Notes under the pieces: model-generated
The model's database searches: none
What the model saw: the letters and a program-made list of their open reading frames with translations, nothing else
Told to the model about the DNA's origin: nothing
Position numbers and translations under genes: made by a program
Shown: positions 21,950 to 55,752 of the stretch, in pieces
How positions within the stretch are numbered: position 1 is the stretch's first letter
Layout: every line of letters begins with the position of its first letter
Source: Manis javanica
Lineage: Eukaryota > Chordata > Mammalia > Pholidota > Manidae
Length of the DNA stretch: 64,000 bases
Direction: 5' to 3'
NCBI RefSeq assembly: GCF_040802235.1
Contig: NC_133161.1
Span: 150,093,121-150,157,120, forward strand

Positions 21950-22562
21950 AAGGCCGGGTACCCCACGTGCAAGGCAAAGTCTCCCAACCGCGTTTGTTCA
22001 CGATCTCGCGCTTCACAGTCAGACGCGCAGAAATTGCACTTCAGAGCCCGTGATCGGCACGCGTGGGCGGCGGGGACGGCCTCCGCCACCCGGGGACCCC
22101 GAGCGGCCCCGCGCCGCGCGCAGCCTGTCCGCGCAGCTCGCGCCGGGCGGGCGCCGGGGTCTCGGGCGCAGCCGACGCCTTTGCGGCTCGCGGGTCGCGG
22201 GGCGGCGGCCGGAGGCGGGAGAAGATGGCGGGCGCGGCGGGGCCCGGGGCCGGGGAGGCGACTCCCCCCTGGGCCCGATCGTGCTGCTACTCGACGGGCT
22301 CTGCGACGGGGACGCGCGGGGTCCGGGTCCGGGGGAGCCGGGCGGGGAGCCGCAGCCTGAGGGCGAGGGGGGCCTGCGGGCGGCGCCCCCGGGGGTCCCC
22401 GGCCGGCGGCGCGGAAGGGCTTCCCCGACCCCCAGCGGCGCCGCCGCCCGTTCTCCCCGCGCTCGTCCGAAGCCCCGTCCCAGCGGTGCTCAGAGGTTGT
22501 CACGGGCGCCCTGCCGCTGGGCGTGGAGAGGACGCGGGGCGAGCCGCTGCCGTTCCTTACAG
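21950..22562 (+). promoter_or_regulatory. PPP2R1B: CpG island and former promoter of PPP2R1B
   Basis: Dense CpG from about 21.95 kb to the end of exon 1 at 22562, with no TATA box, as expected for a housekeeping PP2A subunit. The island still looks CpG-rich by eye although the coding exons are disabled. Transcription of the pseudogene may therefore persist. The sequence does not show where transcription starts. Confidence 0.65.
22225..22562 (+). pseudogene. PPP2R1B: PPP2R1B exon 1 (expanded and frameshifted)
   Basis: ATG at 22225 starts MAGAAGPGAGEA, like the family N-terminus MAGAS. The next conserved stretch, GGDSPLGPIVLLLDGLCDGD (family: DSLYPIAVLIDELRNED), lies in another frame. After extra GC-rich sequence, LPLGVERTRGEPLPFLT (family: LALGVERTRSELLPFLT) resumes in yet another frame. 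The exon is 338 nt, against about 205 nt expected from human, so roughly 130 nt are extra. It ends ACA-G before the donor GTTGTG. HEAT repeat 1 is destroyed. The ATG is judged by homology only. Confidence 0.75.
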
Positions 22563-22989
22563 GTTGTGAATTTTTCCGCTTAAAAAAGGTACGGGAAACA
22601 AAAGCAAAAACCAAACGAGAAAGGCCCAGGCGTTCCCACTTTTCCAGCGGCGTTCAGAACTTTGGCTGCTTTTTCGAACCCGTTACGCACCGTTTTAACT
22701 ACCGAACTGAGCCTGATGCTTTCTGAGCAAGAGAAACAGGACTGCGTTGTCCTGTCGTGGCCAGACGCAGTCGGACATTCCCTGTTTAGCTAAGTAGCTG
22801 AAGGGAAGTGACTGGTAAGGGATCGGGGGTTTCTGATTGATTCTGTAAAGCAGAGCCCGGAAGACTTGACCTTTGAGAAGGAACAAGCGCTGTTACAGGG
22901 CGCAGGGCGGTCTGGAAACGGGCTCCGGGTTTTGTGCGTGTTCAGCTCCGGCCGCCCTGGTTGTGAGTGCGTCTGGTTGTCATTTCCAG

Positions 22990-23087
22990 ATACAATTTAT
23001 GATGAAGATGACGTTCTGTAGCTCTCCCTGAGCAGTTGGGGAATGTCACCTGCCTGGTGGGAGGTCCTGACTGCCCACTGTTTGCTG
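22990..23087 (+). pseudogene. PPP2R1B: PPP2R1B exon 2 (stop codon, two small deletions)
   Basis: The acceptor TTTCCAG and donor GTGAGT are intact. The frame opens DTIYDEDDVL as in the family and hits TAG at 23019-23021, caused by loss of one base in the Leu-Ala codons. A second loss of two bases near 23072 (in the family DFAHCLL segment) restores the original phase. The exon is therefore exactly 3 nt short but out of frame for about 50 nt between the two lesions. Confidence 0.85.
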
Positions 23088-23543
23088 GTGAGTATATTTT
23101 GCCCACTCCCTTCAAAACTTTTGCAGTATAAGGGATAGTGGTGCACTAGGCACTCTACATTTTTTATGCAGGTCTTTTTATGGACAGTCACAGTGTAAGC
23201 TATGGAGAGAATAAATAATGTATGCATTTTGGACTCCATGAACCCTTTCTTATTCTCACTATGAATATAAGAATTCCTTTTCTTTTCTGCCTGTGTAAAC
23301 TCATTTGTTAGTTGAGAGGTTAGGAGAAAAAGAATTTGGTTGTTTATATTGGTGTTTTTCCCCCCTGAAATTGGAACTCTTACTTCTTACTTAGCAATAT
23401 CATGACTTTGGAAATGTTCATTAGCTTGTTTTTGATTGTGAGCATAACTTGTGCTCTGACTGTGAATTTGATGAGTTCAGTTCAATTTAGTTGGCTTCTG
23501 TTCATATCCTGTTCTATCAGGCACTGAAGTTACAGTTGATGTT

Positions 23544-24113
23544 AAAAAAGAACAGTGTGACATATAAATCAAGTATAAAAATCAAACAAATATTCATATT
23601 TGAACTGATTGTTTATAGTTCATAATGCATGATCAAAACTGAAAGTTTCTGTGATGACTGCCCTTGTACTGTTCACCATGTAACTTATTTGCTATGTAAG
23701 AATTTGTTCTCCATGTAAGAACTTGTTCGTTGTGCTTCAGAAGATTGGAGACTGACGAGAATTAGGCTTGGGGTGGATTAATGATTGTGCATTGAGCATT
23801 GACTTCCCTATACAGAATTTTATTGTTAACAAACATTTGATCAATAAATATGAGAGATGCCCTCTCAAAAAAAAAAAAAAAGTACAGACTTCCAATTGTA
23901 AAATAAATAAGTAACCGGGATATAATGTATAGCATAAGGAATATAGTCAAAATATCCGTAACAACTTTGTATGGTGATAGCAGGTAGCTAGAATTATCAT
24001 GTATATAAATGTTGAATCACTGTGTTGTACACCTGAAACTAATGTAATACTGTGTGTCAACTACCCTTCAATAAAAAATAATTATCTACAAAAAAAAAAA
24101 AAAGAACAGCGTG
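23544..24113 (+). mobile_element. Chimeric retroposon: repeat X with poly(A) fused to a truncated L1 3' end
   Basis: 23561-23880 is repeat X, ending AATAAATATGAGAGATGCCC and a poly(A) run. 23881-24103 is an L1 3' end ('TGTTGTACACCTGAAACTAA', then 'CTTCAATAAAAAA' and poly(A)). The same sequence flanks the pair: AAGAACAGTGTGA ends at 23560 and AAGAACAGCGTGA ends at 24113, one mismatch in 13. One duplication around both parts suggests a single integration, as produced when L1 reverse transcriptase jumps from L1 RNA to another polyadenylated RNA. Insertion of X into an older L1 is the alternative. It sits in intron 2 of the PPP2R1B relic. Confidence 0.65.
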
Positions 24114-24267
24114 AGTGGAATGAGATCTTTGTCTTCAGGGGTGTCAACGAATAATCACTATGTGGTGTTAGGTGGAAAAATAGAAGCACAGATGAGTTAC
24201 CCGAGTAATAGGAAAAGGATTAACCAGGGTGATCAGGGAAAACCTTCAGAGATAATGTCTGAACGAG

Positions 24268-24475
24268 GTTTTCTTTTTTAAATTTTTTATTAAGGTATGA
24301 TTGATACACACTCTTATGAAGGTTTCACATGAAAAAACAATATGGTTACTACATATAACCACATTATCAAGTCCCCACCCACACCCCAATGCAGTCACTG
24401 TCCATCAGTGCAGTGAGATGCCAGAGATCCACTATGTCCCTTCTCTGTGACACACTTGAACTAGGTTTTGAAGGA
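24268..24475 (-). mobile_element. LINE/L1-like 3'-end retroposon, minus orientation
   Basis: Read on the minus strand, the stretch runs from 'GTGTCACAGAGAAGGGACAT' to 'TATCAATCATACCTTAATAA' and an A-rich end, so it has a poly(A) signal and tail at 24268-24290. I recognise it as a common mammalian retroposon 3' region of L1 type but do not assign the subfamily. Confidence 0.5.
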
Positions 24476-24559
24476 TGACTAGGAATTCCACATACTTTAG
24501 GGTTTAAATACTGTCTGTATGAAGCTGACTACTGTGATTTCTTTCACCTCTGGCCTTTC

Positions 24560-25440
24560 TGTGCAACTCCATGTATAGATACAGAAAGACAAATATAAAT
24601 ATCTGTTTGTCTCTCTCCATATATCTGCCTACAATTTTTCTACTTGGATATCAGACATGCATTTCAAATTTAGCACACCTAAAACAGAATTCCATTTTCT
24701 CTCCCAAAAGCACCTCATTTAGTTGTCCCATCTTAGTGGCATCACCATCTACCTGGTTGTCAGTCAAAACTAGAAGGCGCCACTGAATCCTCTACCCCGC
24801 AGCTCGCAGTGACTGCAGGTTCTACTCCAGATGAGTCCACTGCCCTCCGTCCCTCCTGCTACCATCTCTCTGTGGTCTCTCCAGGCCCCATGCTCTTTCC
24901 TGTAGATGACTGCAGCAGCTTCCGGACTGGTCGCCTACCGCTCTGGCCCCCACCCCTCCCTGTAGTTCACTCTTCACCCGGCAGAGGGACGGATCATTTC
25001 CTGCCATGGCTTCTGGAAAAATGCAAAGTCCTGCCTCACCTTGTTTGTATCTAACAGAACCTGACCTGGGAGTTTCTTCCATGCCGTGTTCCCTCTTGAT
25101 GAACTCATTATGTTCACAGTGGTCTTTTTTTGTTTGAATAAACCAAATTTATTGCTGCTTTAAGACTGTTGCACTAGGTATTCCCGCTGATAAGATGTTC
25201 TTTCGAGCTGCCGGCGGCTGCCCCTAGGCTTTTGGATGCCAACTTCAGAGCAGCTCAGAAAGGTCTTCCCTGACCCCGGGACCTGGGATTCCTCCCGGTC
25301 ATTCCTTGCCCCGTCATCCTGTTCTGTATCTTTACAGAGTGTTCATCACCATCTACTTGTTTTCTTGATGAATTTTTGTCTTCCTCCATTAGACTATAAA
25401 CTCTGCCAGAGCAAGTAACCTGTTTGCCTTGTTTCTTCTC
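24560..25440 (+). mobile_element. L2 LINE, plus orientation
   Basis: Landmarks in L2 order: 'TACTTGGATATCAGACATGC', 'CCTAAAACAGAATTCCATTTT', a central 'GACTGCAGCAGCTTCCGGAC', 'CCCTCTTGATGAAC', then the 3' part with 'AGAAAGGTCTTCCCTGACCC' and 'TTAGACTATAAACTCTGCCAG'. Diverged and interrupted, as expected for this ancient CR1-clade LINE. Confidence 0.6.
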
Positions 25441-26172
25441 CCCCCTTGGTGCTAGAGTACAATGATAATCATAGAAACAATAAATTCCAGAGGCTTGGAA
25501 TCATGCAGCAGGTTGTGCTGGAGCATAGAGTATGGGCTGGAGTAGGCCAGAGAGGCGGGGGGCGCGGGGGGCGCATAGGAAAAGGGCGCGGAGAAGCAGG
25601 TGGAGTTCAAGTCTGGCGCATGTCTCCAGGGCTCGGCCTTACTCTGTAGCGGTGATAGCGATTATCCGAGATAGTGCCTGAGAAGCGGTCTGAGAGGCAG
25701 AGGCGGGCCACGGAAGGCCTGCCAGGGAGAGAGTTGGAGCTTTCAGAAGGGCTTCCGCAGTACCTCTTAGGACAGCTGAGTACTTCCCGCCTCTGTGTAG
25801 CAAACAGGTTTTGAAATATATTACTAGATAGACATACTTCTTTTCTTAGAGTCAATTCTGTTTACTCTCTTGGTCAGTTCTATGTGTGGGTTTTGTCCTT
25901 AACATTTGCAGGTCATGGTATCTGCTGAACCTAGCTGGATTAAATGCAGATCCGGAAAGGCTGAGGTTCAGAGAATCAGCCCTGTTTTACTTTTTTTTTG
26001 GGGGGTGTCATAATAACTTACTGAGCCTAGTTCTGGTCTGTTCTGTTTCTAAAGCTGCAAGCAAAGGTTCCTGACATCTTTGTACTCTTCACCCAGTTCC
26101 CTCTGAAACTCCTGCCTTGTGACTGGCTCATGAAAAGATTTTGGATGTATTCTAAAAAAGTGATTTTGTATC

Positions 26173-26455
26173 GCTGCATAGCTTTTACATCCAGTGATTC
26201 AGCTTACAATATTAACTCAGCCTTTCATAGGTTGGATAAATTGCAGGTCCACACAAGGGTAGATAATGGTTGCTTACACCTCCACAAATGGTAGAATAAT
26301 ACTCCAAAGGCTGTGGACTCAGCGGCCTGATGAGATGTCATTCTGTAATTACGGTGTCCAAGGTTGCTCATGTTTTTGCACTTACTGTTGAGCAATGATC
26401 CTGTCTGAATTTGGCTGCATAGCTTTTACATCCAGTGATCAGCTCACAATATTAA
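26173..26455. repeat. Local direct repeat, arms 26173-26215 and 26414-26455
   Basis: Two copies of a 42-43 bp segment (starting GCTGCATAGCTTTTACATCC) differ by one base and one indel and are 198 bp apart, a little upstream of PPP2R1B exon 3. The interval is not duplicated. The high identity points to a fairly recent local event. Confidence 0.75.
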
Positions 26456-26704
26456 TACTGTGTCAGGTGTCTTTGTAGGTGCCCTGTGGGCACTGCTACC
26501 TGGGCCGTGAGATCTTGGGCACTGCAGGTCTGCCTTCAGGTTGAACACACCTAAAGTCACCACCGTGTGAGCTGAAAGTAACCGTTTGGTGCGATGTTGC
26601 CGACATTCTGCTTCCATGCAGCACCTCCCTTCAGTCACTTTAAAAGGTGATAGTCAGTATCTAACCTGATTCACTTAAGTTTTCTTTTTTTTTGGTGTAC
26701 TCAG

Positions 26705-26937
26705 CCTCCTTTGGAAAGTTTGGCGATGGTAGAAGAGACTGTGGTTCGCAAGAAGGCTGTGGCGTCCCTGAGGCGGGTCTCCCAGGAACACACTCCTGGT
26801 GCTCTGGGGGCTCATTTTGTGCCTCTGGTGAAGCACCTCGCAAGTGGGGATTGGTTTACTTCTCGCACTTCTGCATGTGGTTTGTTCAGCGTTTGCTATC
26901 CCAGGGCTTCACGTGCTGTCAAAGCCGAGATTCGACA
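26705..26937 (+). pseudogene. PPP2R1B: PPP2R1B exon 3 (open)
   Basis: Begins [20 protein letters not shown] and continues through [36 protein letters not shown] and [14 protein letters not shown] without a lesion, covering HEAT repeats 2-4 of the scaffold. It ends CGACA before the donor GTAAGA; exon 4 supplies the G of the split Gln codon. Splice sites look functional. Substitutions such as D-to-K at VVRDK and A-to-G at VALEA suggest loosened constraint. Confidence 0.85.
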
Positions 26938-27196
26938 GTAAGATATGGTGGTTTTTTTTGGTTATTCGGGGTTACTGGGAAGTCATAGCTGACCGTTGAC
27001 GCAGCACCCTGTCACCAGTGAGTGGCTGATGCTGTGGTGGGTCGGTGATGTCACAGTCTGGCTGGCTGTGCTCGTGGTTTTCTCCGTCACGTCTGTGAGT
27101 AGACGCCTGATCACTGAGGTTCATGAGGGAGAATCTGTATGTGTGTGCTTGGGCGCAAGTGTGTGTTGGGAGTGTTTAACCATTGTTTTTCGACAG

Positions 27197-27226
27197 GAAA
27201 TAGTTCCATTGTTTCATTTGCTCCAG
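27197..27226 (+). repeat. Degraded partial copy of PPP2R1B exon 4, just upstream of exon 4
   Basis: GAAATAGTTCCATTGTT (27197-27213) matches the exon 4 sequence GAAATTGTTCCACTGTT (27329-27345) at all but two of 17 positions. In frame it reads EIVPLFH, against EIVPLFT in the exon. It abuts the exon 4 acceptor. The shortness of the match limits certainty. Confidence 0.45.
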
Positions 27227-27370
27227 GTACTTCCATTCCTTGTGCTCAGATGACACACTAGTGGTGTGATGTGCTGCTGCTTCCAAATTGGGCGAATTCG
27301 CAAAAGTTTTAGAAATAGTGTGAAAAGTGAAATTGTTCCACTGTTCACTAATCTAGCTTCAGATGAACAG
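27227..27370 (+). pseudogene. PPP2R1B: PPP2R1B exon 4 (stop codon and 4-nt deletion)
   Basis: After CTCCAG the exon reads QYFHSLCSDDTLVV, then TGA at 27267-27269, then [15 protein letters not shown]. The family has [20 protein letters not shown]: Pro became Leu, the first Arg became a stop and the second Arg became Cys, the last two by CpG transitions. Four bases are missing at about 27315 where the family has Leu-Asp, shifting the frame before SEIVPLFTNLASDEQ. The donor GTAAGG is intact. Confidence 0.88.
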
Positions 27371-27802
27371 GTAAGGTAACTCCAAGTATTTAAGGAGCAT
27401 AGATGTGCTCTTGTTCTCCCAACATTATAAGAATTTGTTGAGGGTGGTTCGGTTCTATTGTTAGGATCCTTTTTGCAAAATTAATACTTAATTCTGGCCT
27501 GGATAAAGTTTAGTCTGACCCCTCTTGGTGTCCGTTAATTTTTTTCTTAACCAGACCATGATTTTTCTCTTACATTAGTAGCTGTTACAGGAGTGGGGAG
27601 TCAAAGGAAGTGGGAGCTGTGATCAGAAAGGGGCACCGAGGCTGCGTCTAGGGGTGCATGGCTTTGGGGACTGTGGGCTGGACTGTCATATGGCAGAGTA
27701 ATGTTTCCTGGAATTTTTGACTTCTCAGAAGAACAAGCATAGCTGTGTTAGGAATGCTCTTTGACCCTCTGCATCCTTTATGTGAGTGTATAGGATGACT
27801 TC

Positions 27803-28079
27803 ACATAATAGCAATTTTTTTTTTTTGAGAGGGCATCTCTCATATTTATTGATCAAATGGTTGTTGACAACAATAAAATTCTGTATAGGGGGGTCAATGC
27901 TCAATGTACAATCATTAATCCATCTCAAGTCTAATTCTCGTCAGTCTCCAATCTTCTGAAGCATAACGAACAAGTTCTTACATGGTGAACGAATTCTTAC
28001 ATAGTGAATAAATTCTTACATGGTGAACAGTACAAGGGCAGTCATCACAGAAACTTTCGGTTTACATAATAGCAATTTT
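27803..28079 (-). mobile_element. Repeat X retroposon, copy B, minus orientation, with target-site duplication
   Basis: A 16-bp duplication ACATAATAGCAATTTT occurs at 27803-27818 and 28064-28079. The 245-bp insert between, read on the minus strand, starts AAACCGAAAGTTTCTG, carries about three tandem units of 'ACCATGTAAGAA(C/T)TTGTTC', and ends AATAAATATGAGAGATGCCC plus poly(A). It is 5' truncated relative to the copy at 23561. The flanking duplication, A-tail and poly(A) signal show L1-mediated retroposition. Confidence 0.85.
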
Positions 28080-28109
28080 AAGTCCAAGGATCTAGGTCAT
28101 CATGTTATA

Positions 28110-28340
28110 GAAATAACAATAACCATAGCCAGCTAAAGAAAGCACTTAACTGTTCTCAGCCTATTCTAAGTGGTTTTATGTATATGAAGTAATTTGGTTC
28201 TCACAACAACCCCATGGGCTAGATACCCCATTTGGCATGGCAGGAAACACAGAAAATTGGAGTAACTTGCTCCAGGTTGCATAGTTAGTGTGGCAGAGTT
28301 GGGACTCAGATGCAGGCAGTGTGGCTCCAGAGTTCACAGC
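28110..28340 (-). mobile_element. MIR SINE, minus orientation
   Basis: 'AGCACTTAACTGTTCTCAGC', 'GTTCTCACAACAACCCCATG', 'CTCCAGGTTGCATAGTTAG' and 'GGGACTCAGATGCAGGCAG' follow the reverse MIR order. Confidence 0.75.
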
Positions 28341-31185: not shown

Positions 31186-31396
31186 TTTTCACTTAATCTT
31201 TTTTTTTTTTGAGAGGGCATCTCTCATATTTATTGATCAAATGGTTGTTAACAACAATAAAATTCTGTATAAGGGACTCAAGGCACAATCATTAATCAAC
31301 CCCAAGCCTAATTCTCAACAGTCTCCAATCTTCTGAAGCATAACGAACAAGTTCTTACATGGTGAACAAATTCTTACATAGTTTTCACTTAATCTT
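31186..31396 (-). mobile_element. Repeat X retroposon, copy C, minus orientation, with target-site duplication
   Basis: TTTTCACTTAATCTT occurs at 31186-31200 and 31382-31396. The 181-bp insert on the minus strand is the 3' portion of repeat X, ending with the same AATAAATATGAGAGATGCCC and poly(A), and is more 5'-truncated than the other copies. It lies 241 bp upstream of PPP2R1B exon 5. The perfect duplication indicates a young insertion. Confidence 0.85.
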
Positions 31397-31636: not shown

Positions 31637-31792
31637 GACTCAGTGCGCCTCCTGGCCGTGGAAGCGTGGGTCAGCATCGCCCTGTTGCTGTCTCAGAGGG
31701 ACCTTGTGGCATTGGCGATGCCTGCTCTTCGACAGGCCGCAGAAGATAAATCTTGGCGAGTTTGCTATATGGAAGCTGACAAATTTTCAGAT
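31637..31792 (+). pseudogene. PPP2R1B: PPP2R1B exon 5 (open)
   Basis: Fifty-two codons, the same number as in human, running from [20 protein letters not shown] through the [20 protein letters not shown] segment to SD, with acceptor CCTCAG and donor GTAAAA. The SWR tripeptide, important for B-subunit contact in the paralogue PPP2R1A, is kept. R-to-C and V-to-E changes just after it fall in a normally invariant segment. Confidence 0.85.
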
Positions 31793-31999: not shown

Positions 32000-32097
32000 C
32001 TCCAGAAAGCTGTAGGTCCTAAAATCACCCTAAGTGACCTCATCCCTTAAAGACTGTGAAGCTGAAGTCCGAGCAGCTGCCACCCACAAAATGAAAG
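32000..32097 (+). pseudogene. PPP2R1B: PPP2R1B exon 6 (17-nt deletion)
   Basis: Reads LQKAVGPKITLSDLIP and then TAA at 32048-32050. The family continues AFQNLLKDCEAEV; the sequence coding AFQNLL is missing except for one base (17 nt lost). After the deletion KDCEAEVRAAATHKMK resumes in another frame. Acceptor TTACAG is good; the donor GTTAAG is weaker than usual. Confidence 0.88.
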
Positions 32098-32479: not shown

Positions 32480-32550
32480 AACTTTGCGCGAACTTGCCCA
32501 CTGATGGTAGAGAGACCATAATTTTGATTCAGATTCTCCCCTACATTAAG
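32480..32550 (+). pseudogene. PPP2R1B: PPP2R1B exon 7 (open)
   Basis: Reads ELCANLPTDGRETIILIQIL then PYIK, against ELGENLPIEDRETIIMNQIL in the family; same length, TTTTTAG acceptor and GTGAAC donor. No lesion, but there are several unusual replacements in HEAT-repeat loops. Confidence 0.83.
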
Positions 32551-32877: not shown

Positions 32878-33012
32878 GAATTAGTATCTGATACAAATGA
32901 ACATGTAAAATCAGCTCTAGCTTCTGTAAGTATGGGGTTGTCTACCGTCTTGGGCAGAGAGAATACCACTGAACATCTTCTACCTCTTATTTTAGCTCAG
33001 TTAAAGGATGAG
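32878..33012 (+). pseudogene. PPP2R1B: PPP2R1B exon 8 (open)
   Basis: Forty-five codons as in human, [20 protein letters not shown] followed by [20 protein letters not shown] and QLKDE. Both splice sites are intact (TTTAG, GTGAGT). One of the best conserved exons. Confidence 0.87.
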
Positions 33013-33820: not shown

Positions 33821-33994
33821 TGTCCTGAAGTCCGCTTGAATATCATCTCCAATCTGGAGTATGTAAACGAAGTGACTGGAATTCGTCAGCTCTCTCAATC
33901 TCTCCTTCCTGCCATCGTGGAGCTGGCTGAAGACGCCAAGTGGAAGGTCCGGCTGGCCACCATTGAGTGTATGCCGCTGCTGGCGGGTCAGCTG
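33821..33994 (+). pseudogene. PPP2R1B: PPP2R1B exon 9 (open)
   Basis: Fifty-eight codons as in human: [58 protein letters not shown]. Acceptor GCTTGCAG and donor GTGGGT. No disabling change; this covers central HEAT repeats near the B- and C-subunit transition of the scaffold. Confidence 0.88.
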
Positions 33995-36182: not shown

Positions 36183-36243
36183 GGTGTGGAATTTTTTGAT
36201 GAGAAGCTGAACTCTTTGTGTATGGCCTGGCTTGTGGACCATG
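36183..36243 (+). pseudogene. PPP2R1B: PPP2R1B exon 10 (open)
   Basis: Reads GVEFFDEKLNSLCMAWLVDH, identical to the family over this stretch as I remember it, plus the first base of the next Val codon. Acceptor CCATAG and donor GTAAGT are strong. Confidence 0.88.
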
Positions 36244-39200
36244 GTAAGTAAGTAAGTTAAAAACAAGTTATCATGGAAGGCCTGTGTTTCTGCATGTACC
36301 CCTTTTTGTCATTTATTTCCTTTTTAGAAGGGAACACTAATCTGATCACATACTTGCCAGAAATATACGGTGATGAAGAAGGGCTTTGTGTAAAGTCTGG
36401 GTAGCTTCCTCTGAGCACAAGTGTGACATTTCTAGTTACCACCAATTTCTTCCTATCTTAAATTTTACTTTCTCCATTAAACGATATCTTTGTCCTATTA
36501 CGCATTCTGCTACATTATTTTCAGACTGTCTTTTTTTATAAATACACTCTTTTCTTACCCCAAACCCTTCTGTTGGACCGTCCACCATTGGTGTCTTTGG
36601 CCGTCATAAACCGGGCTGCACAGGGACTGGAATGGGAGGAGAGGCCTGGGGGAGAACAGGCTGCTTTCCTTCTTTGGCACCACGGAGGGGAGGCACAGAG
36701 TGGTGCAGGAAAGGAGTCCAGGAAAGAGAGACGTCAGCTACGACTTGGGACCAGGGCCAATTTCTGGTGTTGGTGAAACATGGCCAGTACCCTGGCTACT
36801 GAAGCTTGGTGCTGAGAGAGGGCAAAGCGCAAGCTCAGGGCAGGGTCAGATGGGACAGCATTTAGGACGTAGGTTTTCACAGTTTATCTTCTCTTTGCCT
36901 TTAAAATATAATTAACTTCAACAGTCACAGAATCCTTGTCTTCCAGTGCCACAAACCGTTACCACTGCAAACTGGTACTGCTGCTTACCAAAATATACAA
37001 GACAGTTGTTTTCCATAAAACCACTTTACCTGTTAACTTGTCAGCATTTGACTTTCTGACAAGGTCTCAGGTCCAAGGTCTGCTCTTGTCTGCCATGCAC
37101 CAATGGGTGGGAGGGGCGCCCTCTGTGCCTGTGCTGTCCAGTGCCAGTCCCCGTGTCCAGACCCGGCAGCTCAGTGTGGTCAGGCCTGTTCAGATGAGGC
37201 CCTGGGAGCTTAGCTCATGTTGTCCTGTGTGAGCTGTTCTCTAATCTGGTGGATATGATAGGCACCCTGATTAATGTCTGTAGTACCTTATGTACTTTAT
37301 GCATTGAGTGTATCCGTTCATCTGCAGGTGCTTATACCTGGGTATTCGTGAGGATTGGGACTGTTTACGTTTGCATGTACGTGCAGGTGGATTTGTTAAG
37401 GGCTTATTTGGATCATATGGGAAATCATAGGGTTAAGAGAGTGTGAAGAGGAGGGGTGTGAAAAAATATGCAAATCTTATATAAAAGCATATGTATATAT
37501 GTAGATAATTTCAGTGTTTCAAACTGGACTGTGAAGACTTATTTTCTTGCCTTCTAAAGTTACCTTTTTATACTTACTTTTTCTTTTTAAATGAAACTTA
37601 AGTTTGGCAATGCATAGGGAAGAAATTCGATTCTATGTAGAAAAAAAGTGTTTCTATTATTTCTGATACATATTCAGTATTAGTTGGAATGACATGTCCC
37701 AGTAGGTCACTTTATGCTTTCTTTGAAAGCTGGCATTTTAGGTTTATTTTGAAGAACTTTTAAAGCCCCAATTTTCCGCAAAGAACCAAACTCCCGACAC
37801 CCTTCCTGTGTAGGGTCGTCTCTGTAAGTCGCTCATTCCTTCCGCTTGTCTCCGGGTTTTTTCTTTTTTCTTGCAGTTTGGAGCGAGAGAGACCCCTGTG
37901 CTCTCAGTGACACGGGCTCATTTCTCTGAGCCGATGAGTTTCCAGCCCTGAACTTGCTCTGCGCTCAGTCACGTTTTGTATTGTTTTGCCTTGTCCGTAG
38001 CAGCTGTGTACTGATCACTGACGAGTTATATGTTTGACACCTTTTTTCCTTGTCATTAAAGTGCTAAAAGAATGTCGTAAACATCCAGAGGTATAAGGAA
38101 GAACGTTATCACTCATCTCTCTTGCCATAGTTGAGTGGACAGTACTGAGCAGGAGGAATTTAGAAGGAAATTAATTTTTTGTGGGAGAAGGAGAATGTCG
38201 GAGTCAGCACACGAAGGTGTCAGCCACTCGGAGCCCTCGCTGAGGGGGGCGCGGGGCCGGGCGGCGGGGTGGGCGCGTGGCGGGCACGGCCCAGTGCCGC
38301 CAAGGTCTGAGCCGAGGCTGAGCACCTGCCCAGGGCTGGAACCCTGGCAGCGAGACCCTGCCGGTGGCATTCGGGTGGGAGAAGCTCGGATTAAAGCACA
38401 GAATTAGAGAAGGCGCATGCTCTCACTGTACCTTAGGGAGAGGCGGGGTGAGGCTGGTGCCCAAAACAAGGACTGTGACTGTGATGGGAAGGAGTTTGCA
38501 TTGACGGGAGAGGCAGTGACCTGGGCTCCTTGGAGGGCTGCTGGGTGTGACCGACAGTTCGCCTCTTCCGTGGACGTCGGTCAGGTTGCACGTCGGTGCT
38601 GACTTACGCGGTTCCTGGCTGTGCTGTCTTCCCTGTGCTCGTCAATGGCATTGCCTACAAGCATCCGCAGACTAGCAGAGCTGGGCGCTTCCTGTCTGGA
38701 GGCCTTGTGCAGTCGCCCAGGGTCAGGGCAGTGTCTTGGATGGCTTTTCTTGCCCATCCTGTCCCCAGGAGGTTTGGGCTGCCTGGGGGGGGGAGCACAG
38801 TGAGGGCCCGTATCCACCCCCAGGGCTGTCTGTGGTCTAGCTTGCATCTTGAGCATCCTGGGCCTGCAGGGCGCAGGAGCCCCAGGCCAGCCTTGTTCAG
38901 GGTCCCACAGAGCAACTCTTTGTTGCGGACACAGTAGTAGCTCAGGCCTTTATTGCCTACGTTTATGACGTCTTTGACACATGGTGTCACTAGGTGTTAA
39001 AGCAGGCACACTACTCACAGAAGATGTTTCACATGTCCCACTATCACATTTCAAGGAAAAAGAGGCAAATTGTTCTGAAGTTTTTATTGGCTGTCGTGTG
39101 GACGACCACAGTAACCTTTGCACGACCTTCACTGTCCGTCTCCACAGCTCTTCTTGCTGTGGCTGTAGGAACCTTGCTAACCCCCCTATTGGTCACTGGG

Positions 39201-39798: not shown

Positions 39799-39953
39799 TG
39801 TGTGCTGCCCGTGAAGCTGCCACCAGCACCCTCACGAAGCTAGTGCAGAAGTTTGGTGCCAAGTGGGCCCAAAATACCATCATTCCCAAGGTGTTAGTAA
39901 TGGCAAATGATCCCAATTACTTGCATAGAATGACCACTTTATTCTGCATTAAT
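39799..39953 (+). pseudogene. PPP2R1B: PPP2R1B exon 11 (splice donor lost)
   Basis: Reads [40 protein letters not shown] and [12 protein letters not shown], matching the C-terminal HEAT repeats that hold the catalytic subunit. The coding frame is open, but the expected donor GTAAGT is CTAAGT (C at 39954), which the spliceosome should not use. Read-through gives stop codon TAG shortly after, at about 39966. Confidence 0.87.
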
Positions 39954-40310
39954 CTAAGTATTGCATAGCTATTACTGCTAAGCCAGGTACTAAAGCAGTT
40001 ACTCGGGACTGTATCTTTGTGCGCATTGCCTTCTGTTTGGAATCTGTTTATTACATTGGTTAATTTGGACAGGAGAGAAAATGTCAGGTCTCCAATTCTT
40101 GTTAAAATCTACAGTAGTGAGTGGTGGGTTGTGGATTCTTCTAGTTACGGGGTTATTTGAATTCTTCCTTGTTTCCCTCATTTAGATGCCTAAAATAGAG
40201 ACATTTTCCTGTTGGTTGGTTATTTTCTTATTAAATAGTAGTTTGTCTCTTTAGAGTCTGGAGTTACGTCTGGAAGTGTTGTGAGTATGCCATCTTACTC
40301 CTCCTTCTAG

Positions 40311-40453
40311 CCGCTGTCTGAAGCCTGCGGTCAGGAAGTGACCACCAAGCAGATGCTGCCCATCGTGTTGAAAATGGCAGGAGACCAAGTAGCGAATGTC
40401 CGTTTCAACGTGGCCGAATCTCTTCAGAGAATCGGACTGATTCTAGATGCCAA
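40311..40453 (+). pseudogene. PPP2R1B: PPP2R1B exon 12 (open)
   Basis: Reads [40 protein letters not shown] and IGLILDA, then AA of the split Asn codon before donor GTGAGA. Acceptor CTTCTAG is good. Differences from the family are few, such as K-to-E at VAKSLQ. Confidence 0.87.
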
Positions 40454-40818
40454 GTGAGAGTTCAGTATTATTCTTGTTTAAGAAGTAGATAAAAATTTTT
40501 ACCATGTAGTGGGGAGTAAGCTAAAACTAAGTTCAGTGATTTTCACTTTACCGAAAGTGTGGGTTTATTTAAAGAAAATAACCATTTTTGAGGGTTTTTC
40601 AGTCTGACTTTTACATTTAAGCTCTGTACGTGTAGATCATCGTCTGCAGCGAATTCTGCTGAGAGCTCGAGAAATCACGTAGTGCTTGTCGAGTGTGCAT
40701 TGCAGACATTTTGTAGTTTTTATTCTAAGCTGCGATCATCGCCGTGGAGCATGTGTCGTACTGCAGGGCACTTCTCTGGCTGGCAGCGTGCCGCTCACAC
40801 GCTGCTGTTGGGCCTTGG

Positions 40819-40910
40819 TGCTTTGCAGGAGGACGATGAGCCGGAGCTACAGAAGCTAGGCCAGGATGAAGACGTGGAGGTCAGGTTCTTCGCGCAGGAA
40901 GCCGTCGGTG
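40819..40910 (+). pseudogene. PPP2R1B: PPP2R1B exon 13 (splice acceptor lost)
   Basis: The exon 12 phase requires this exon to start with T completing Asn, followed by ALQEDDEPELQKLGQDEDVE and VRFFAQEAVG (family: ALQGEVKPVLQKLGQDED, then FAQEAIS). The two bases before the required start are GG and not AG, so the acceptor appears destroyed. A cryptic AG at 40827-40828 would shift the frame into an early stop. The donor is a weak GTGTGC. Confidence 0.78.
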
Positions 40911-43772
40911 GTGTGCCCTTCCGCTTGCTGCCGTCAGCCTCCTCTCTGGTCCACAGGGTCGCGTGTGGGTTCCGTGGGCAGGACGGTGACTCGGGGCACA
41001 AGGCTGCCGAGCTCCCTGATCGCTTGGGCCCCTCTGTGTCGTGCATGCTTGGCCCAGTTCCATGTCTAGGGCTGGGGAGGAATATGATTCCTACGGGTTT
41101 TTTTTTTTGGATTTTAATCGGTCGTTAAAGTTTTAACCTTTGGTTATCCTGGCAGAGTAAAGAGTTGGGCTGTAGTGAAAAGTCCATGGTCTTAGGCTTT
41201 TGGATCCTTGTTGTCATGCTTAAGATGCACATGGACCTTCTGTGCCACTAACAATTTTGTTTGGCATTTTTCTAGTGCTGCGTTGACATAATGACAACAG
41301 GAGGGGAAAGACTTTACTAAATTCTTACTGCAGATTTCTAGGCAGTGTTTTCTTAAACTGGGTGGAGAAAAAAATGGAAAACCTTCAAGACCTCATTCAA
41401 GCAAATGGCAAGAAATCAAAATCCCGTGACTTGATTCTTTCTAACAATGAAACGGGATTGTTTTTACACGTCTTCCTTGTTGGGGTGACTCCATTCACAC
41501 CATTCTTATGGTTCGTGACCGATTCCAGGCACGTGGTGCGGTCATTCCCTGACTCCCTCCTGATGGCTTATCCAGCGTCTCCCGGGCCCCTGGTCCTCGC
41601 TGTTGTTTGGCCCTGGCCTCTTAATATTCCTGAGCAAACGTGAATGGACCACGCGAGGTGTGGAGTGATTCTCTTAACGTTCGCACATATCTGCCTTTCC
41701 CTCACTCCAAAGTTACATGGACGTGATTTAGAACACCTTACTTTATAAACCATTAGGGACACACATTGAGACGTGACTGTAATGAAAGCTACATTTTCCT
41801 GGGTAATGACGGTCTGCGTTAGGGTCTCACATGAAAAGGGAATGTGGAAGCTCAGGGTTCACATATTGGTTGTTTGGGTTTTATTTGCTTGGTTGTGACT
41901 GTAATCATGCCATTCAGAAACCTGAAGAACAGACACATGATATGGTGGTCCGCCCGGGGGCCCTGTGCACCGATCTCCCCGTCCCCAGACTGTGGTCCAG
42001 GGCAGACCCCGGTGTGGGTCAGGAGGCTCCATGGGGCCCTGTCCTTTTGGGTGGCATTGTTTCTGGCTTCCCCTATAGGGGATCCCATTGTTGCCTCAGA
42101 GAACTTGCTCTTTGGCTCATATCTTGGTGGTTTTCTCCATGGATTGATTTTCCTGTCCTGATGTCTCTAGAGTGTAAGTTCCAGGAGCTCTGCAAGGGAA
42201 GGAAGGTCTGTCCATCTTGTCTCTGCTGTATTCTGGCACCTCCGTCCAGTGGCTTTCTGAGAGCTGTCCTCTGGCGCGCTGTGTCAGCAAGTCATCAAAG
42301 GAACCAGACTGCATCTCATTCTCCCTTTGACACAATGGAAGGATTTTACTGCTTTTAAGAAACAAGCCTCCTGTGGCCCTTCTACAGCCCCCGTCTTGGG
42401 CAGCAGTTCTGTTTGCTTTGGTCCTGTGGCCTGGAGTGTGCATTGCAGGAGTTTTTCATGCTGGGCAGTTGATGTCAGTTGTACGGTCGCTTAGGAAAGT
42501 GAACTGGAGACATACATACAGCCTTATGTCAATAAAAATGTCTTGTCACCTTAGTGCTTTCTTCCACAATGTTTTGGGGGTTTACCCCTCTTGAGTTACA
42601 GGCTTTGTATGTAGGTGTGTTGTCTCTATACAACCAGGTCTCGTTTCTCTGTCTGCTGCTGAGCAGACACGAACGTGAACAAGCGCCCTGTTCCTGAAGA
42701 ATAATAGGTTAACGTGTGGTGTCTGATGAGACCTTGTTGAGGAAACAGCCCTCATCTCATGGAAACAGCATGTGAGGCCCTGGGTCTTTGCTGGACAACT
42801 TGGCCTGGCTCAGCAGTGACGCAGCCTGACCTTCGCACTGTCCTTTCCAAGCATCCTGCGTGACCTGCAGAGACCTCCCGGGGGGACGGTCACATCACCC
42901 CCTACCCAGCTGCTAAGCTGCCGCCATGCTTTCTTGTTGCTCTTCTGTTTGTTAATCGCTGTGTTGCCAGGGCGTCTCCTGTGGAAATCCAGTCGGCTCC
43001 GTCTGCCTGGGGGGGCGAGGCAGGCGAGGCGGCGAGACAAGTCGGGTGTCCCCTCCCCTGTGGCCTTTACCTGCGTTTCTCTGACGCTCCCTCTTCCTCC
43101 CGACGCTCCGACCTTAACGCCTCCTGTTTCCTCACTGCTCAGATACAGCCCTGCGGGGGGAGAACTGTCGCTCTCCGTCAACAGATGCAGCGGGCGCGGT
43201 CTGATGTGGCCTGTGATCTCCCGTATTCTCGTTTCCATCCACTTCTTCGCTCCTCTTTCCTGTTGCGTCACGTCTCCAGTCCTTTTTTGTGCCTAGAATG
43301 GTCTCCTCTTCCCCACAGGCCTCCGGGGTCCTGCTGTTCCCAGAAGTTACACAATGTTCAGCTGAGATGGAAATCTGCAGGATGAAGAGTTTAAGTACTC
43401 ATTGGGTAGAAAAGCCAAGTCACTTCTTTCTCCAGAGCTGTTCTCTTAAACTGATACCATCATTTCTGGAAGGAGCCGGGTCTTTTCTGTCTGGCTGGGG
43501 CTCTGTAGGCTGTCAGTGACCAAGATGTGGGGCAGCACCCAGCAGGTACCCAGTGGCCCAACGGGTGGCAGTTTCCACGGCTTTTGAGGGAATGTCACCT
43601 TATGTCAGGTCCCTGGGTGACCAGCGTTCTCTGCACAGGGACCCACGTGGTCGTGGGTGCCCGGGCCTCCCCGTGGCAGCATGGAAGCCATGGAGGGCAT
43701 CCTGGCTGGGCACCGGGGGGCCTGGGGGCCAGCCCTGCCACAGCCTGGTGACAGCACCCTGTCTGTCTCTAG
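40911..43772 (+). other. PPP2R1B: PPP2R1B intron 13
   Basis: About 2.9 kb between exon 13 and the long-isoform exon 14. In other mammals the short isoform ends in this general region; I could not identify that terminal exon. GC-rich in its last kilobase. No gene seen on the other strand. Confidence 0.55.
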
Positions 43773-43894
43773 CCGTGGCCCAAAGGTTGAGGAAGCTAGA
43801 TTTTCCTGGGAAGGACACTGATGAGCTCAGTGCCCCTGGGGCTGACAAGAACCACTTTCTGTGACCCAAAGGTCCTGGTGAGGGCACTGGCAAG
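43773..43894 (+). pseudogene. PPP2R1B: PPP2R1B exon 14, long-isoform exon (stop codon)
   Basis: After CTCTAG the exon reads AVAQRLRKLDFPGKDTDELS and APGADKNHFL, resembling the long-isoform tail of human PPP2R1B (VVAQRLRKLEFPVKD...). It then hits TGA at 43862-43864, where the human frame continues into a Pro/Gly-rich stretch. The remaining codons PKGPGEGTGK are still readable up to the donor GTAAGT, so only the stop interrupts the exon. Confidence 0.75.
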
Positions 43895-49800: not shown

Positions 49801-52800
49801 AGAGTCCCCAGTGCCTCCACAGATGGAGCCTTCTGGCTCCCAGGGGTACTGCACTCGTGCCTGTTGCTGTGAGGGGGTCTGCTGTCCGCGCGGGGGTGGA
49901 GGCCTTTGCAGGCCCTGGGAAAGGTGTGCCACAGTGGGTGGGCCGTGTGTCACTGGTCCACCTGATGCCCTGCAGCTGGCTTGTCCTCAGGGAGCCCCCT
50001 GAACCTGCCTCCCTCCTCCTTCTGCTGCCCAACCAGCTCAAAAATCCAGGAGCACCGGGCAGCACGTAGCCCAGCCTTGTTCACATGCAGGCTGCGGTCA
50101 GCAGTGCCTGTCAGCTGTCTGGCAGCTCACGTGTACTCGGGTGACTTCAGAGCAAGGTATTACTTACCCAGCTGACGTCAGAGAACATATGACCCGCTGT
50201 CCTTGCCTGCGGCCTGAAGTGAGCACTGGGGCTCAGGGCACTTGGCCACCTAACGTACTTTAAAAATCCCACCCGAAGCCTGTTGAGGTGCAGGCCCTAC
50301 CTCACCCACCTGACATACTTATCACCCCGGCTCATAGAAAAGTTGTTTTTATTTTAATTCAAGAGGGTTGGAAACATAGAAAACAGTACATTTTCTCTCC
50401 AGAAGCTTACCCCCACTTAAATTGCCGTTTGATACAAAGATCATTTATTAAACTGCATGTAGGCAATTTTCAAACATTGAGTGACAGGTTACATTTTGAT
50501 TTTTTCACATTGGAGCTATTATGATTTGCACGCAAAATACCAAAGCTATTGAGCTCACCATTTTTTTCTTAGTAATTAAATAACACATAGGAAAAATAAC
50601 TACGGTCAGATCAACCTTATCAAAAGTGACTCTTAAACAAACCAAACATCCAGGAAGACCACCCTTCTCCCTTTAGAAATAAGCAATCTTGCCTTTTCTG
50701 CAAAGTGCTAGTATCTCTTGTCACTTTTATTTCTGAAGTCCCCCAAAAGAGGCAAGCCTTTACTCTCTGCTTCTGTTCCTTCAGAGGGTGGAGGCAGATT
50801 TATTTTACCATTAGCAGTGGGAAGGTGTCGCCACTTGAGTTTCCGTGATGGAGCAAACCCTAAGCTGATACTCATCACTGCCAGCGGCAAGTCCTGGTCA
50901 TCGGCACTTGCTGATGGAATGTCATTCCATCTGGGGTCATATTTTTCCAGGATGTTACTTTGTAATTTTATTTTTAAAGCTCCCCTACCTACCCACTTTA
51001 CCAAAGATGAAGCACATTACTTCTTTAACCCTGAACATGTCTCATCAGCCCTTCTACTCGATGGGCCTCAACTACCCAGAGGCACCCAGCCCCTCCTCAG
51101 GACCAGGCCAAGTTTGTGATTCTTCCCAAGCAGCCCTTGGTGTTGAGCTGTCAGCCTGTGGTGGTGGCCAAAGCTGTGCATTTGGCCCCTTGGTGATGTA
51201 GGAAGTGTGTGTCCTACTGTGAACTTCTGTAGAAAATTACTTCATAAATTGGGGAAACTAGACATTTTTGGTGCTAACCTAAACTTCTGTAGTTAACTGG
51301 ACACTGGAAAGATGGCTACTTGTGGGTCTGTGTCTCCCTTGGCCTCGCTTGTGCAGGGCCACCTGGACTCCATCTATCACTTGGAAGGCACCTCTCCCCA
51401 AAGCCAGGCAGCTGTCAAGTGGAGAATGAGGCTGTGGGGACAGTATCACATTCACCCAGTGCTTAACCCAGATGGGGACTTTGTCTATGTAGCTGCTTGC
51501 TCATGAGAAGGGTCGCCTGCTGAGGGAAAGTGTGCAGTGAGGCCCAGCAGCACGAAGCCACGCCAAGGCCTGGGAGCTGAGGGCCGTGCCTGCCTGGCTC
51601 CGTCAGAGTACTATTGTGAGGGTTAGAAAAAAAGAGCATCCTTGTGAGGTGTGTGCCTGTGAACACAGTTAACTGCTGCCCCCCCGCACCCCCCCAGACA
51701 GGAACCATGTGGAGGCTGTCAGTCTGCAGAGGCAGGTGCCCAGCTCCACCACACATGGACACAGGAAGACGGTATGACGAGGGTGTCTGTGGCTGTGTGT
51801 TCCCTGGAATCAACCCGGCTACCTTAATGGGGAAAATGTGGCCACACGGGGGGGCACTGCGAGACCAGACTCCGGGGCCCCTAAAAGCTTCGCAAGGCTG
51901 GCCTTGTTCTTCCTGCCATCTAGGTCTGTGGGCCCAGAGTGTGCTTCTAACGTCGCTCCCCTGGGGCCACATGGGCTGAATTTGTCAGAAGGGACACCAA
52001 CACTTTAAAAAACGTGCTTTGGTCTGGTTTAGAGACAGAGGCAAATACTGATCTGTCTTTCCACACATCATTCTGAAGATAAGTTGTGTAAAAAATTTCC
52101 AGAAGCAACGAAATGATCAAAGACCCCTACCTAGACAGTGACTCTAACTTACCACCTGTTCTCCAGTTTTTACCTTTGATGTCTAGGCACAAAAGAGACA
52201 GAGCAGCTCAGGTGGCTTCCGAGGAGGCAGTAGAGGTTGCCCGGTCTAGGGGTACATATGCGGCCCCTGTCAGCCCCGGCACAGGGACTGCACACTGTTC
52301 TCTGGCACCAGTGTTGGCAGATGACACTACGTGTCGTCTCTAGAGGAGGAGGAATGTGCAAGCCTTACCTGCAGCCTGGATATTCGCTGAGCCACTGGGA
52401 AGCTGAGATGTGACCATTGATAGGGGTTTTTGAATGTCATACAGAGCTGAAAACTCCAACTCCAACACAGAACCTCACATTTAAGTACCTGGGGCTTGAC
52501 TAGAGATCAGAGGACCTCCAAAGGAAGCCACTCGCTGCCTCGTGTCTGCGTCTGCCTGCCCCAGCCCGCCCTAACCATGAGCTGACGTTTTTCACCCAGT
52601 CACTGAGCCACACCCTTCTTCCAGCTCTAAGCATCAGGTGGGGTTCCTTCCTGAGCCCCGTGGTTTAGGCACTGACTGTGGGAGGGAGAGGCTGGGGCCC
52701 TAGGTCCCTTCTGCAGAGGCCCTGTGCTAGGTGGAGGGTGGTGCTCCCGTGGGTGCTCCCCCTGCCCCAGCACTGCGGGACTCTGAGGTGCAGGCTGGCT

Positions 52801-53129
52801 TTGGGCCCACCAGTTAGGACACAGCTGAAGTACAGGTGCTTCTTTATTTCTGAGGAAGAAAGGGACTCAGACTTCCTCCTCCTTTTGGGAAAGCAAGGGA
52901 AGAAACGTGCCAGAGCAAAGGTCTCGGTTCTGCTTGGTGGGCCCACTGTGTCCCATGAAGTGGCTGAAGGGAAGGTGGTGGAGGTGCAGAGAACCACCAA
53001 GGTGGCAAGAGGGCCGTGTAGGCCTGGGAGGGGCTGAAGGGGCAGCTGGGGGCTCAGTGCAGCTCCCTGGGAACTTAGGGATGGGCCAACCACCCCTGCT
53101 GCTGTTGACTCACTCCATTTGCTTTACAG
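43895..53129 (+). other. PPP2R1B: PPP2R1B intron 14
   Basis: About 9.2 kb between exon 14 and the terminal exon. Moderately GC-rich up to about 50.2 kb, where many unsupported overlapping frames occur on both strands; AT-richer after that, where the probable SIK2 3' UTR lies on the minus strand. It contains the L1 ORF2 fragment at 46.2-46.7 kb. No independent gene is supported. Confidence 0.6.
46201..46679 (-). mobile_element. L1 ORF2 endonuclease-domain fragment with target-site duplication and no poly(A)
   Basis: On the minus strand 46664-46216 encodes the start of L1 ORF2: TLNVNGLNAPIKRHR, SLCCLQETHLKPKDKHRL, VAVLVSDKIDFKTKK and ILGDFHTPLTPET, all in one open frame. It keeps the Asn of LNVNGLN and the Glu of QETHL, but the active-site GDFN is GDFH. 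It is flanked by a perfect 15-bp repeat, TCTGGCATGGGTCTC, at 46201-46215 and 46665-46679. Neither L1 end is present and there is no poly(A) tail at the 3' side. This is an internal L1 piece, not a working element. The intact frame and perfect duplication suggest a recent insertion. Confidence 0.85.
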
Positions 53130-53222
53130 GGGCCAGCATATCAGTTGCATGCAAATTCTAGAGACACATTCGCACAGCTGGAAATTGCAGAATTAGTGCA
53201 TTTTTCCCAAAGCAGAGACTAA
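53130..53222 (+). pseudogene. PPP2R1B: PPP2R1B terminal exon of the long isoform
   Basis: After TTTACAG the exon reads GPAYQLHANSRDTFAQLEIA and ELVHFSQSRD, ending at TAA 53220-53222. This resembles the human long-isoform end (GPVYQLRGDTRDTLAQLGIA, ELVHFSQSTD). It lies inside the probable 3' UTR of SIK2 on the opposite strand. The exon is intact, but every upstream lesion prevents its frame from being reached. Confidence 0.78.
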
Positions 53223-53250
53223 TGTCCCTGGATTAAAAAAGAATGTAAAA

Positions 53251-53256
53251 AATAAA
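53251..53256 (+). terminator. PPP2R1B: PPP2R1B poly(A) signal AATAAA
   Basis: Canonical AATAAA 28 nt after the terminal-exon TAA. Predicted cleavage is near 53275. It is still intact in the otherwise decayed gene. Confidence 0.65.
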
Positions 53257-55752
53257 GTAACACACATATTGCACTTCTTGCTGAATGAAATTTTTACCTC
53301 ACGTTCATCTCACCAAAGTAGGAGCCTGGTTTACAGGATAGGAAAGCTAACGATCACTCTACAGTAGTGCACACACTGCTGTAGGAAACAGACTGGAAAG
53401 AGGACATGATTTCAGAGCAGCCTCCCATGGGCAGAGCAATGAGCAGACAGGGCTGGGGATCAGCGACTGGCCACACAGCCTCCTCCCACCTGCTTACATT
53501 CAATAAACAGTTAAGGGTTTACCGATTTCTGTTGGAGACGAGTGAGGAAAGCAAAAAGGAGCCCGCTGGGCGCATTTCTAAACGCCCAGCCAATCACCCC
53601 GTGAGTGCCCACCCGCTAGTTAGGGTTCCTGGCAGACACGGCCCCTCCAAGTGCATCCAACGTCTGCCTCTCTGCCCTCTCATGCTGTCCCTCCCCTGTT
53701 GGCCTTAACATTCCCTCCACAGCTCCAAGGCTTCCTGGGCACAGTGGCTCGTGGCCTTGTGGTGGGGGCAGGTGTTTGTGCCAGCCTGCAACTGGGCCAC
53801 TCCTGGCACCCTGAAATGAGTGGCCCCCATTTTCAATCTGGAAAGCATTTTAATAAATATTACAGCACTTCTCTAGTATATTTTGGGAAAACATACTGCA
53901 GTCTAAGCAAATCAATCCATTTTATAACTGACTTATTTTGCAAAGACTCAGATCAGATCAGAGATCTTAATGAGAGGATCTCTTAAATGTCTATTTCGCG
54001 AACCATCAGTCTTGCGCAGGAGGAGGAATAAATGCATAGACAGAACATAATTCATTCTTCCTGGGTTTCACGAGCACAATTAGATCACACGACAGTCCTG
54101 TGTGCTACCCCTTCTTGCTGACACCCCGTATCCGGACCCAGGCAGAGGGCCTCTGCGAAGGCTTTGGTGCCAACTGGAGCCCACAGCTGGGGCTGCTTGG
54201 TGCCGATGCCAGCAGGGCTGGGCTTGGCTGGGCAGGACCGCACTCCGACCTTCCACGCTGTCCTCAACTGCCTGAACACTTACTATGAAGAGGAAGGCAA
54301 CATAAAGGTGTTTTCTAGATGCAGCATCAGTGTATTATTATCTCTGTCCTTTGTGCTTTATGCATTCACCAGCTGAAAGGCCAAGCCGTTCTAAAGGACA
54401 GCAGGTAGAGTTTTTAACTAATACTGAATTTGTAACACTCGGACGTTACTGTGCAAACAACTGATCACTCATCACTTCTAGGTATACTGTTAATTAGCTG
54501 TGGCATCTGTTTTTTACTCTGATGAATGAATTGTAAGGTTTAAGTTTTACTAGTAATATAACGTGTTTGGCAGATGATCTGCTTGAATGGTTAACACATC
54601 TGTGGTTTCTGAATATTGCTGAAATACTTGAACATTTCATTACAAGTCAAGACTTTAAGGAAATTAACAATGTGATTCCCACATGGTGGAAAACAAACTC
54701 TGAAGTGACTTTGGATTTAGCATCAACATAAATGGAAAACTTGGTTTCTACAGGAAAGAAAAGAATTAGCACGATCTGGGGGTGAAGGCACAGCACTACA
54801 GCCCACACGGGAGATGAAAGTCACTCTTCTTTGTCCTTAAAATTTCCAAGCCCTATAGGAAACTGTCCAGATACACAAAGTGCAGTAAACTACTAGCAAC
54901 GTAAAGGTGTAAAGTCAAAGTAGTTATTACATTTTAAGAGACGCGAGGCCCTCTAAAGACCAGCCGCCCCAACCCGGAAGTCCCCACAGAATGTGCGGGA
55001 GGTGCTCGCCTCCCCCACCAGGGCTGGTGCTCCTGAGGGTTCTCGGGTTCTGCCCCAGCCCCCAAGGTTGGGGGCCTCTTGGTTCTACAGGCGACATCGT
55101 TGGAGCACTGAGTGCACGGACTCTGAATCCAGGGAGCCTTCCGAAGAAGAAGGCATGTTGCCCGCTCCCAGAGCCGTGGCTGCCTGCTGTTACTTCATGG
55201 CTCCTGAAACAAATTCCGTGCTCCACTTTCCTTGGGTGGTCACGGGGACAACTTGCACCAGCAGCTTAGAACTTAGGATTCAACGACAGAGAACAACTTT
55301 ATTTCCTGTGTATCTGATTTCACTGTGAATTCTTGACTGACTGTTTGGCTTCCATGAAAAATATATTGCCTTTTTTTTGCCCATACATACTGCACACATT
55401 TTTTTTCCCTGCTTCCAACAAGGTTTTCCTCAGTAATGAGCTGGTGCAGTTCTGCAGAAAACTCGGTCTGGATGTCTTTTTGGCAGAACTTTCATCCGTG
55501 TCTTGCTCCCCCTGACCTAAGGGCGTGAGCTTCAGCCTACTACTACATCCCAGCACCTGCCACAGAGAACTGGTGGGACAGAGGCAGGAGGAATCGGCAT
55601 CCACCTGGCCAGGCCCTGATTCCATTTGGGCGACTTCATTTTTCTCCTCTAGGGAGAGGGCAGGAAAATAAGCTTTACATTTAAAAGGCTGGAATAAAAA
55701 TAGGAATACACACTCTTCCTTCACTTGACCCACCTCACTTCCTGTGCTCAGG

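Follow-up and report, generated by a model that had tools for sequence, protein, structure and literature searches.

Gene loss has been described repeatedly in pangolins. The closest described cases are CGAS and STING1, single genes of Manis javanica that decayed in place between conserved neighbours through stops and frame shifts, some of these lesions being common to three pangolin species (PMC7291609). Tooth and taste pseudogenes of the same lineage show the same kinds of lesion and include the enamelin gene ENAM as a dated yardstick (PMC12906968), and NLRP genes linked to reproduction, some expressed in the testis and others related to the embryo, have been lost in the same order (PMC8560141). 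The gene considered here, PPP2R1B, lies in a stretch of 64,000 nucleotides of M. javanica DNA (assembly GCF_040802235.1, contig NC_133161.1, positions 150,093,121 to 150,157,120 of the forward strand), the whole of which is called the window below. PPP2R1B encodes A-beta and PPP2R1A encodes A-alpha, the scaffold subunits of protein phosphatase 2A (PP2A), and in M. javanica PPP2R1B is very probably a unitary pseudogene, with PPP2R1A the sole scaffold gene left in the assembly. This loss is like many of the published pangolin losses in kind, but that it befell this gene is unexpected: CGAS and STING1 are innate-immune genes (PMC7291609) whereas PPP2R1B, whose loss is known here from one species, codes for a housekeeping phosphatase subunit, and the tooth and taste pseudogenes match lost organs or senses (PMC12906968) whereas no lost organ explains the decay of PPP2R1B. 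No earlier report of an evolutionary loss of PPP2R1B, or of PPP2R1B in connection with pangolins, was found in the open-licence PubMed Central literature.

What happens when A-beta is missing has been described in mouse and human. A 2025 review describes Ppp2r1b-null mice as azoospermic, with a block at pachytene but no visible effect on development or on the fertility of females (PMC12579511), and in human, male infertility of dominant inheritance is reported to segregate with the PPP2R1B R194Q allele (Du et al. 2021, as cited in PMC12579511 and PMC12557939). PPP2R1A is weak or absent in the spermatocytes of both species (PMC12579511). M. javanica resembles these cases in that A-beta is absent and that a stop occupies the very codon, R194, that is altered in the human allele, and is unlike them in that the mouse and human defects bring sterility whereas the pangolin lineage plainly reproduces. 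The shared codon is probably a coincidence, because it is presumably a mutable CpG. A gene that is strongly conserved, a tumour-suppressor candidate and reported to be necessary for male meiosis is thus missing from a living mammal, which amounts to a natural knockout.

The locus was recognised with tblastn, using as queries the human A-alpha and A-beta proteins, which match PDB entries 2ie3_A and 9mf5_A letter for letter. Exons 1-14 follow one another in order on the forward strand of the window between positions 22225 and 40910 and have the same limits as those of this genome's PPP2R1A. Downstream on that strand, two exons for alternative C-termini were recognised. An earlier, sequence-only reading of this DNA had proposed fifteen exons in order and phase within a locus ending at 53275. 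Order and phase hold for exons 1-14; the tiny canonical exon 15 was not found by pattern search, an absence that means little because a similar pattern also missed PPP2R1A exon 15 in the 1.5 kb past its exon 14, and the proposed end was not reproduced, the last recognised piece ending at 52244. The last ALG9 exon lies upstream and SIK2 downstream on the opposite strand; both neighbours had been called intact, a description that covers the last ALG9 exon (9233-9355) and the SIK2 3' exons (490 codons). The human gene order is ALG9 - PPP2R1B - SIK2, and the position between ALG9 and SIK2 is the orthologous place of PPP2R1B. Of 69 sites that distinguish human A-alpha from the A-beta consensus, 46 keep the A-beta residue.

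Lesions were identified in a frame-aware alignment, read against the raw sequence and the exon boundaries of this genome's PPP2R1A. They comprise six indels that break the frame, a single substitution stop of the main frame (R194) and one stop in an alternative exon, and three splice sites are affected, the exon 12 donor and exon 14 acceptor being lost and the exon 1 donor displaced (Table 1). The frame is already broken before codon 18, with 32 nt between the ATG start and that codon. In exons 4, 6, 8-11 and 13 the frame is open and the splice dinucleotides are normal, but a complete A-beta can no longer be encoded here. Most of what the earlier reading had listed is present under exon numbers that were mostly one too low: it gave frameshifts for exons 1, 2 and 4, and frame lesions other than the 17-nt deletion lie in exons 1, 2, 3 and 5; the 17-nt deletion given for exon 6 lies in exon 7, and the donor and acceptor said to be lost after exon 11 and before exon 13 are the CT donor of exon 12 and the GG acceptor of exon 14. 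The stops it had assigned to exons 2, 4 and 14 could all be located, but the canonical frame has one substitution stop, that at R194 in exon 5; the early TAG is no substitution, appearing in the old frame of exon 3 because of the 1-nt deletion near 23019, and the supposed exon 14 stop sits in the alternative C-terminal exon at 43773-43894, which corresponds to isoforms of elephant seal and others. A candidate donor lesion at exon 4 was rejected, the codon there being split in the same way in PPP2R1A and the donor normal.

Table 1. Features recognised in the window, with positions counted from its first nucleotide
Feature	Position	Strand	State	Basis or measure
PPP2R1B exon 1 remnant	22225..22319	+	ATG at 22225; donor GT shifted one base	
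PPP2R1B exon 2 remnant	22473..22562	+	1-nt deletion near 22506; both splice dinucleotides present	
PPP2R1B exon 3 remnant	22990..23087	+	1-nt deletion near 23019; 2-nt deletion near 23072	
PPP2R1B exon 4	26705..26937	+	open frame; intact splice dinucleotides	
PPP2R1B exon 5 remnant	27227..27370	+	TGA at 27267-27269 replacing R194; 4-nt deletion near 27315	
PPP2R1B exon 6	31637..31792	+	open frame; 10/54 codons changed	
PPP2R1B exon 7 remnant	32000..32097	+	17-nt deletion near 32048	
PPP2R1B exon 8	32480..32550	+	open frame	
PPP2R1B exon 9	32878..33012	+	open frame	
PPP2R1B exon 10	33821..33994	+	open frame	
PPP2R1B exon 11	36183..36243	+	20/20 codons identical to human	
PPP2R1B exon 12	39799..39953	+	open frame; donor CT, not GT, at 39954-39955	
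PPP2R1B exon 13	40311..40453	+	open frame; splice dinucleotides present	
PPP2R1B exon 14 remnant	40819..40910	+	acceptor GG, not AG, at 40817-40818; 11/31 codons changed	
Alternative C-terminal exon	43773..43894	+	in-frame TGA at 43862-43864	tblastn with isoform C-termini
Second alternative C-terminal exon, fragment	52194..52244	+		tblastn with isoform C-termini; 71% identity over 17 residues, E 0.002
CpG island over former promoter and exons 1-2	21901..22620	+		GC 0.74; CpG observed/expected 1.07; 105 CpG; ~720 bases
ALG9 last coding exon	9233..9355	+	open; no stop	tblastn with human ALG9; 90% identity over 41 codons
SIK2 3' coding exons, tail-to-tail neighbour	55756..59943	-	no stops	490 codons

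The window locus might instead be a decayed duplicate or processed copy, with the true gene elsewhere, and an intact PPP2R1B elsewhere is what the sequence-only reading had proposed to look for. This is scarcely credible, since the introns and neighbours are those of PPP2R1B itself and protein searches of the assembled sequence (2.56 Gb; 2,559,957,944 bases in 63 contigs) match A-beta only at the window locus and at PPP2R1A. Two such whole-assembly searches gave 22 and 23 matches at E <= 1, all of them at 4.715-4.748 Mb of C17 or in the window, with no intact A-beta elsewhere, and a DNA search with exon 6 found one place in the genome, the window locus. Whole-genome searches disclosed no retrocopy of PPP2R1A or PPP2R1B either, and such copies should have been visible because the same kind of search shows PPP2CA retrocopies: one intronless copy covers all 309 residues on C2 and another lies in two adjoining pieces on C7, the search also listing two multi-exon loci on C12 and C14. 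The claim of a unitary pseudogene is accordingly upheld by the many lesion types, the orthologous place and the lack of a spare copy in the assembly, and the gene very probably decayed in place through indels, a stop and splice-site changes, having been neither moved nor copied.

Apart from the window locus, the assembly yielded one A-scaffold gene, PPP2R1A on C17. Over 14 exons with GT/AG at the junctions, 574 of its 575 checked codons equal the human ones, a count that leaves out the five-codon exon 15 (not located) and 9 further codons, mostly at junctions. KLK5 and KLK15 lie near PPP2R1A in human. Both have been placed on M. javanica chromosome 17 (PMC12906968), which the position of PPP2R1A on C17 fits. 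Near PPP2R1A exon 2 there is a second exon-2-like stretch (positions 2250-2330 of the extracted region of C17) with 81% identity to human exon 2 over 27 residues. Of the intronless PPP2CA/PPP2CB copies, the one at C2:104694575-104695477 has 94% identity over 309 residues, with one TGA and one TAA tabulated, and the other lies at C7:93386646-93387505.

Beyond the lesions themselves, the protein has diverged widely. Among the 568 readable codons between 18 and 596, 97 differ from the consensus of 18 database proteins plus human, an amino-acid divergence of 17%, and 80 of 522 near-invariant mammalian sites are changed. All 18 mammalian database proteins, by comparison, are 94.5-97.7% identical to human PPP2R1B, as counted with local stretches below 50% identity dropped and codons 1-17 and 597-601 excluded; they were picked from 120 matches listed, several being isoforms without one exon. 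The NLRP genes, unlike PPP2R1B, vary among other mammals too (PMC8560141). No database protein is nearly identical to the conceptual translation, the best identity being 84% among the 120 matches listed. As one assembly from one individual was used, the lesions could in principle be artefacts of sequencing or assembly, or belong to a rare null allele while the species keeps a working PPP2R1B, yet a change in 97 of 568 codons is far beyond error or polymorphism. Sequencing error is ruled out because the lesions are many, varied in kind and accompanied by 17% amino-acid divergence; moreover, the 490 codons of the adjoining SIK2 exons have no stops, and a published M. javanica assembly has a base quality value (QV) of 55 (PMC11825179). 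An explanation of this type is therefore very improbable.

Several observations nonetheless weigh against a dead gene. Apart from the single individual and the gaps in the PPP2R1A count given above, an animal without A-beta would be expected to be sterile, to judge from mouse and human (PMC12579511). Near-invariant sites have changed less than variable ones (15% vs 37%), as would be expected if part of the branch had still been under constraint. One main-frame substitution stop is found where about four would be expected under unbiased decay, simulated for the same amount of amino-acid change (P(<=1)=0.10, 60 simulations), a scarcity that the GC bias of the decay, described below, partly explains. 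Exons 8-12, 199 codons in all, are without frame lesion, and the CpG island is undecayed, so that the promoter may still be in use. Methylation and neutral evolution over tens of millions of years would be expected to strip such an island of much of its CpG; this one may still serve as a germ-line promoter or be upheld by gene conversion.

The island, with its observed/expected ratio of 1.07 over the old promoter, and the lesion-free run of exons 8-12 could be taken to mean that a truncated product or non-coding transcript of the locus still functions. Residual constraint on exons 8-12 was however rejected, as their amino-acid change (25 of 199 codons) equals that of exons 3-7 and 13 (38 of 288; Fisher P 0.89), and the exon 12 donor is lost. 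A fragment made from exons 8-12 would also be without the first HEAT repeats and the end that binds the C subunit. Such residual function is unlikely, and the unitary pseudogene remains the preferred reading.

Pseudogenes normally drift towards AT. In PPP2R1B, with a proxy from the protein consensus taken as ancestor, the amino-acid class changes divide into 56 GC-ward and 18 AT-ward, and the minimal nucleotide changes number 66 AT>GC vs 21 GC>AT. Unbiased simulation makes 36% of class changes GC-ward, and the observed share was reached in none of 100 unbiased simulations, in 6 of 100 with a two-fold bias and in 89 of 100 with a three-fold bias. The bias peaks in exons 1, 2 and 14, which are GC-rich (24 GC-ward vs 2 AT-ward), the alignment being least sure in exons 1-2, and exons 3-13 alone give 32 GC-ward vs 16 AT-ward. 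As a control, ENAM, unpolarised and with human as reference, shows 91 GC-ward vs 121 AT-ward changes and differs from PPP2R1B (Fisher P 9.7e-7), while the SIK2 exons compared with human show 36 GC-ward and 21 AT-ward (P 0.007 against ENAM, P 0.13 against PPP2R1B). These substitution patterns suggest that the bias may be regional, with SIK2 mildly included, and that GC-biased gene conversion probably shaped the decay of PPP2R1B in a GC-rich region; it may also have helped to fix the damage.

The gene appears to have begun to decay tens of millions of years ago. Change at near-invariant sites amounts to about 0.074 substitutions per site, which gives 34-49 million years (My) and, over a wider set of estimates, 29-55 My, rough figures that use mammalian neutral rates of 1.5-2.2e-9 and amino-acid change. 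A second estimate makes use of the ENAM pseudogene (C5:117292290-117294982), in which 11 frame changes and 4 stops were counted in 918 aligned codons against a human ENAM sequence. The lesion density of PPP2R1B (7 in 1.74 kb) relative to that of ENAM (15 in 2.75 kb) is 0.74, and with the ENAM loss dated to 72.8 Mya (PMC12906968) this yields a rough age of 54 My (range 21-127). The split between Asian and African pangolins is placed at about 37.9 Ma, and that of M. pentadactyla from the other Manis species at 22.6 Ma (PMC10551234). The loss likely predates the Manis radiation, and if it took place some 30-55 My ago, Asian pangolins, and perhaps all pangolins, should therefore share it.

With A-beta lost, meiotic PP2A must be scaffolded otherwise. 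All PP2A trimers that need a scaffold, including those of meiotic spermatocytes, would be built on A-alpha, in which case A-alpha would have to be expressed in spermatocytes; PPP2R1A expression there would be the simplest solution. A gene required mainly by male germ cells is of a type that can be lost once its other paralog is expressed there. A wider scenario is conceivable and is offered tentatively, being somewhat doubtful as a whole: the whole order would have lost PPP2R1B before the pangolin radiation, its decay driven or speeded by GC-biased gene conversion, and male meiosis would have been rewired onto a near-human A-alpha. If it were true, the need for A-beta would lie in its site of expression and not in the capability of the protein. 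M. javanica poses in testable form the question of whether A-beta has a task in spermatocytes beyond the reach of A-alpha or is merely the copy switched on there. The loss also bears on how to interpret variants of PPP2R1B found in cancer families and in men who are infertile.

Some further features of the region may be mentioned. By eye, telomere repeats are absent from the last 2 kb of scaffold C6, which lies about 170 kb past the window and holds L1-like sequence, so that a subtelomeric position is unproven. Boxes of tRNA-type short interspersed elements (SINEs) are not in excess (7 found vs 13.7 expected), and the SINE content of the published M. javanica assembly is 0.96% (PMC11825179); scarcity of SINEs, like the broken ENAM, fits this species. 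Further 500-nt stretches resembling CpG islands occur at 14901-15800, between ALG9 and PPP2R1B, and within PPP2R1B at 38101-38700, 40601-41200 and 42701-43500. Within a PPP2R1B intron, a pair of repeats resembling the L1 3' end (27815-28005 and 31199-31382) are 90-92% alike and 3.4 kb apart, and by eye a further copy of this repeat lies in reverse orientation near 23560-23880.

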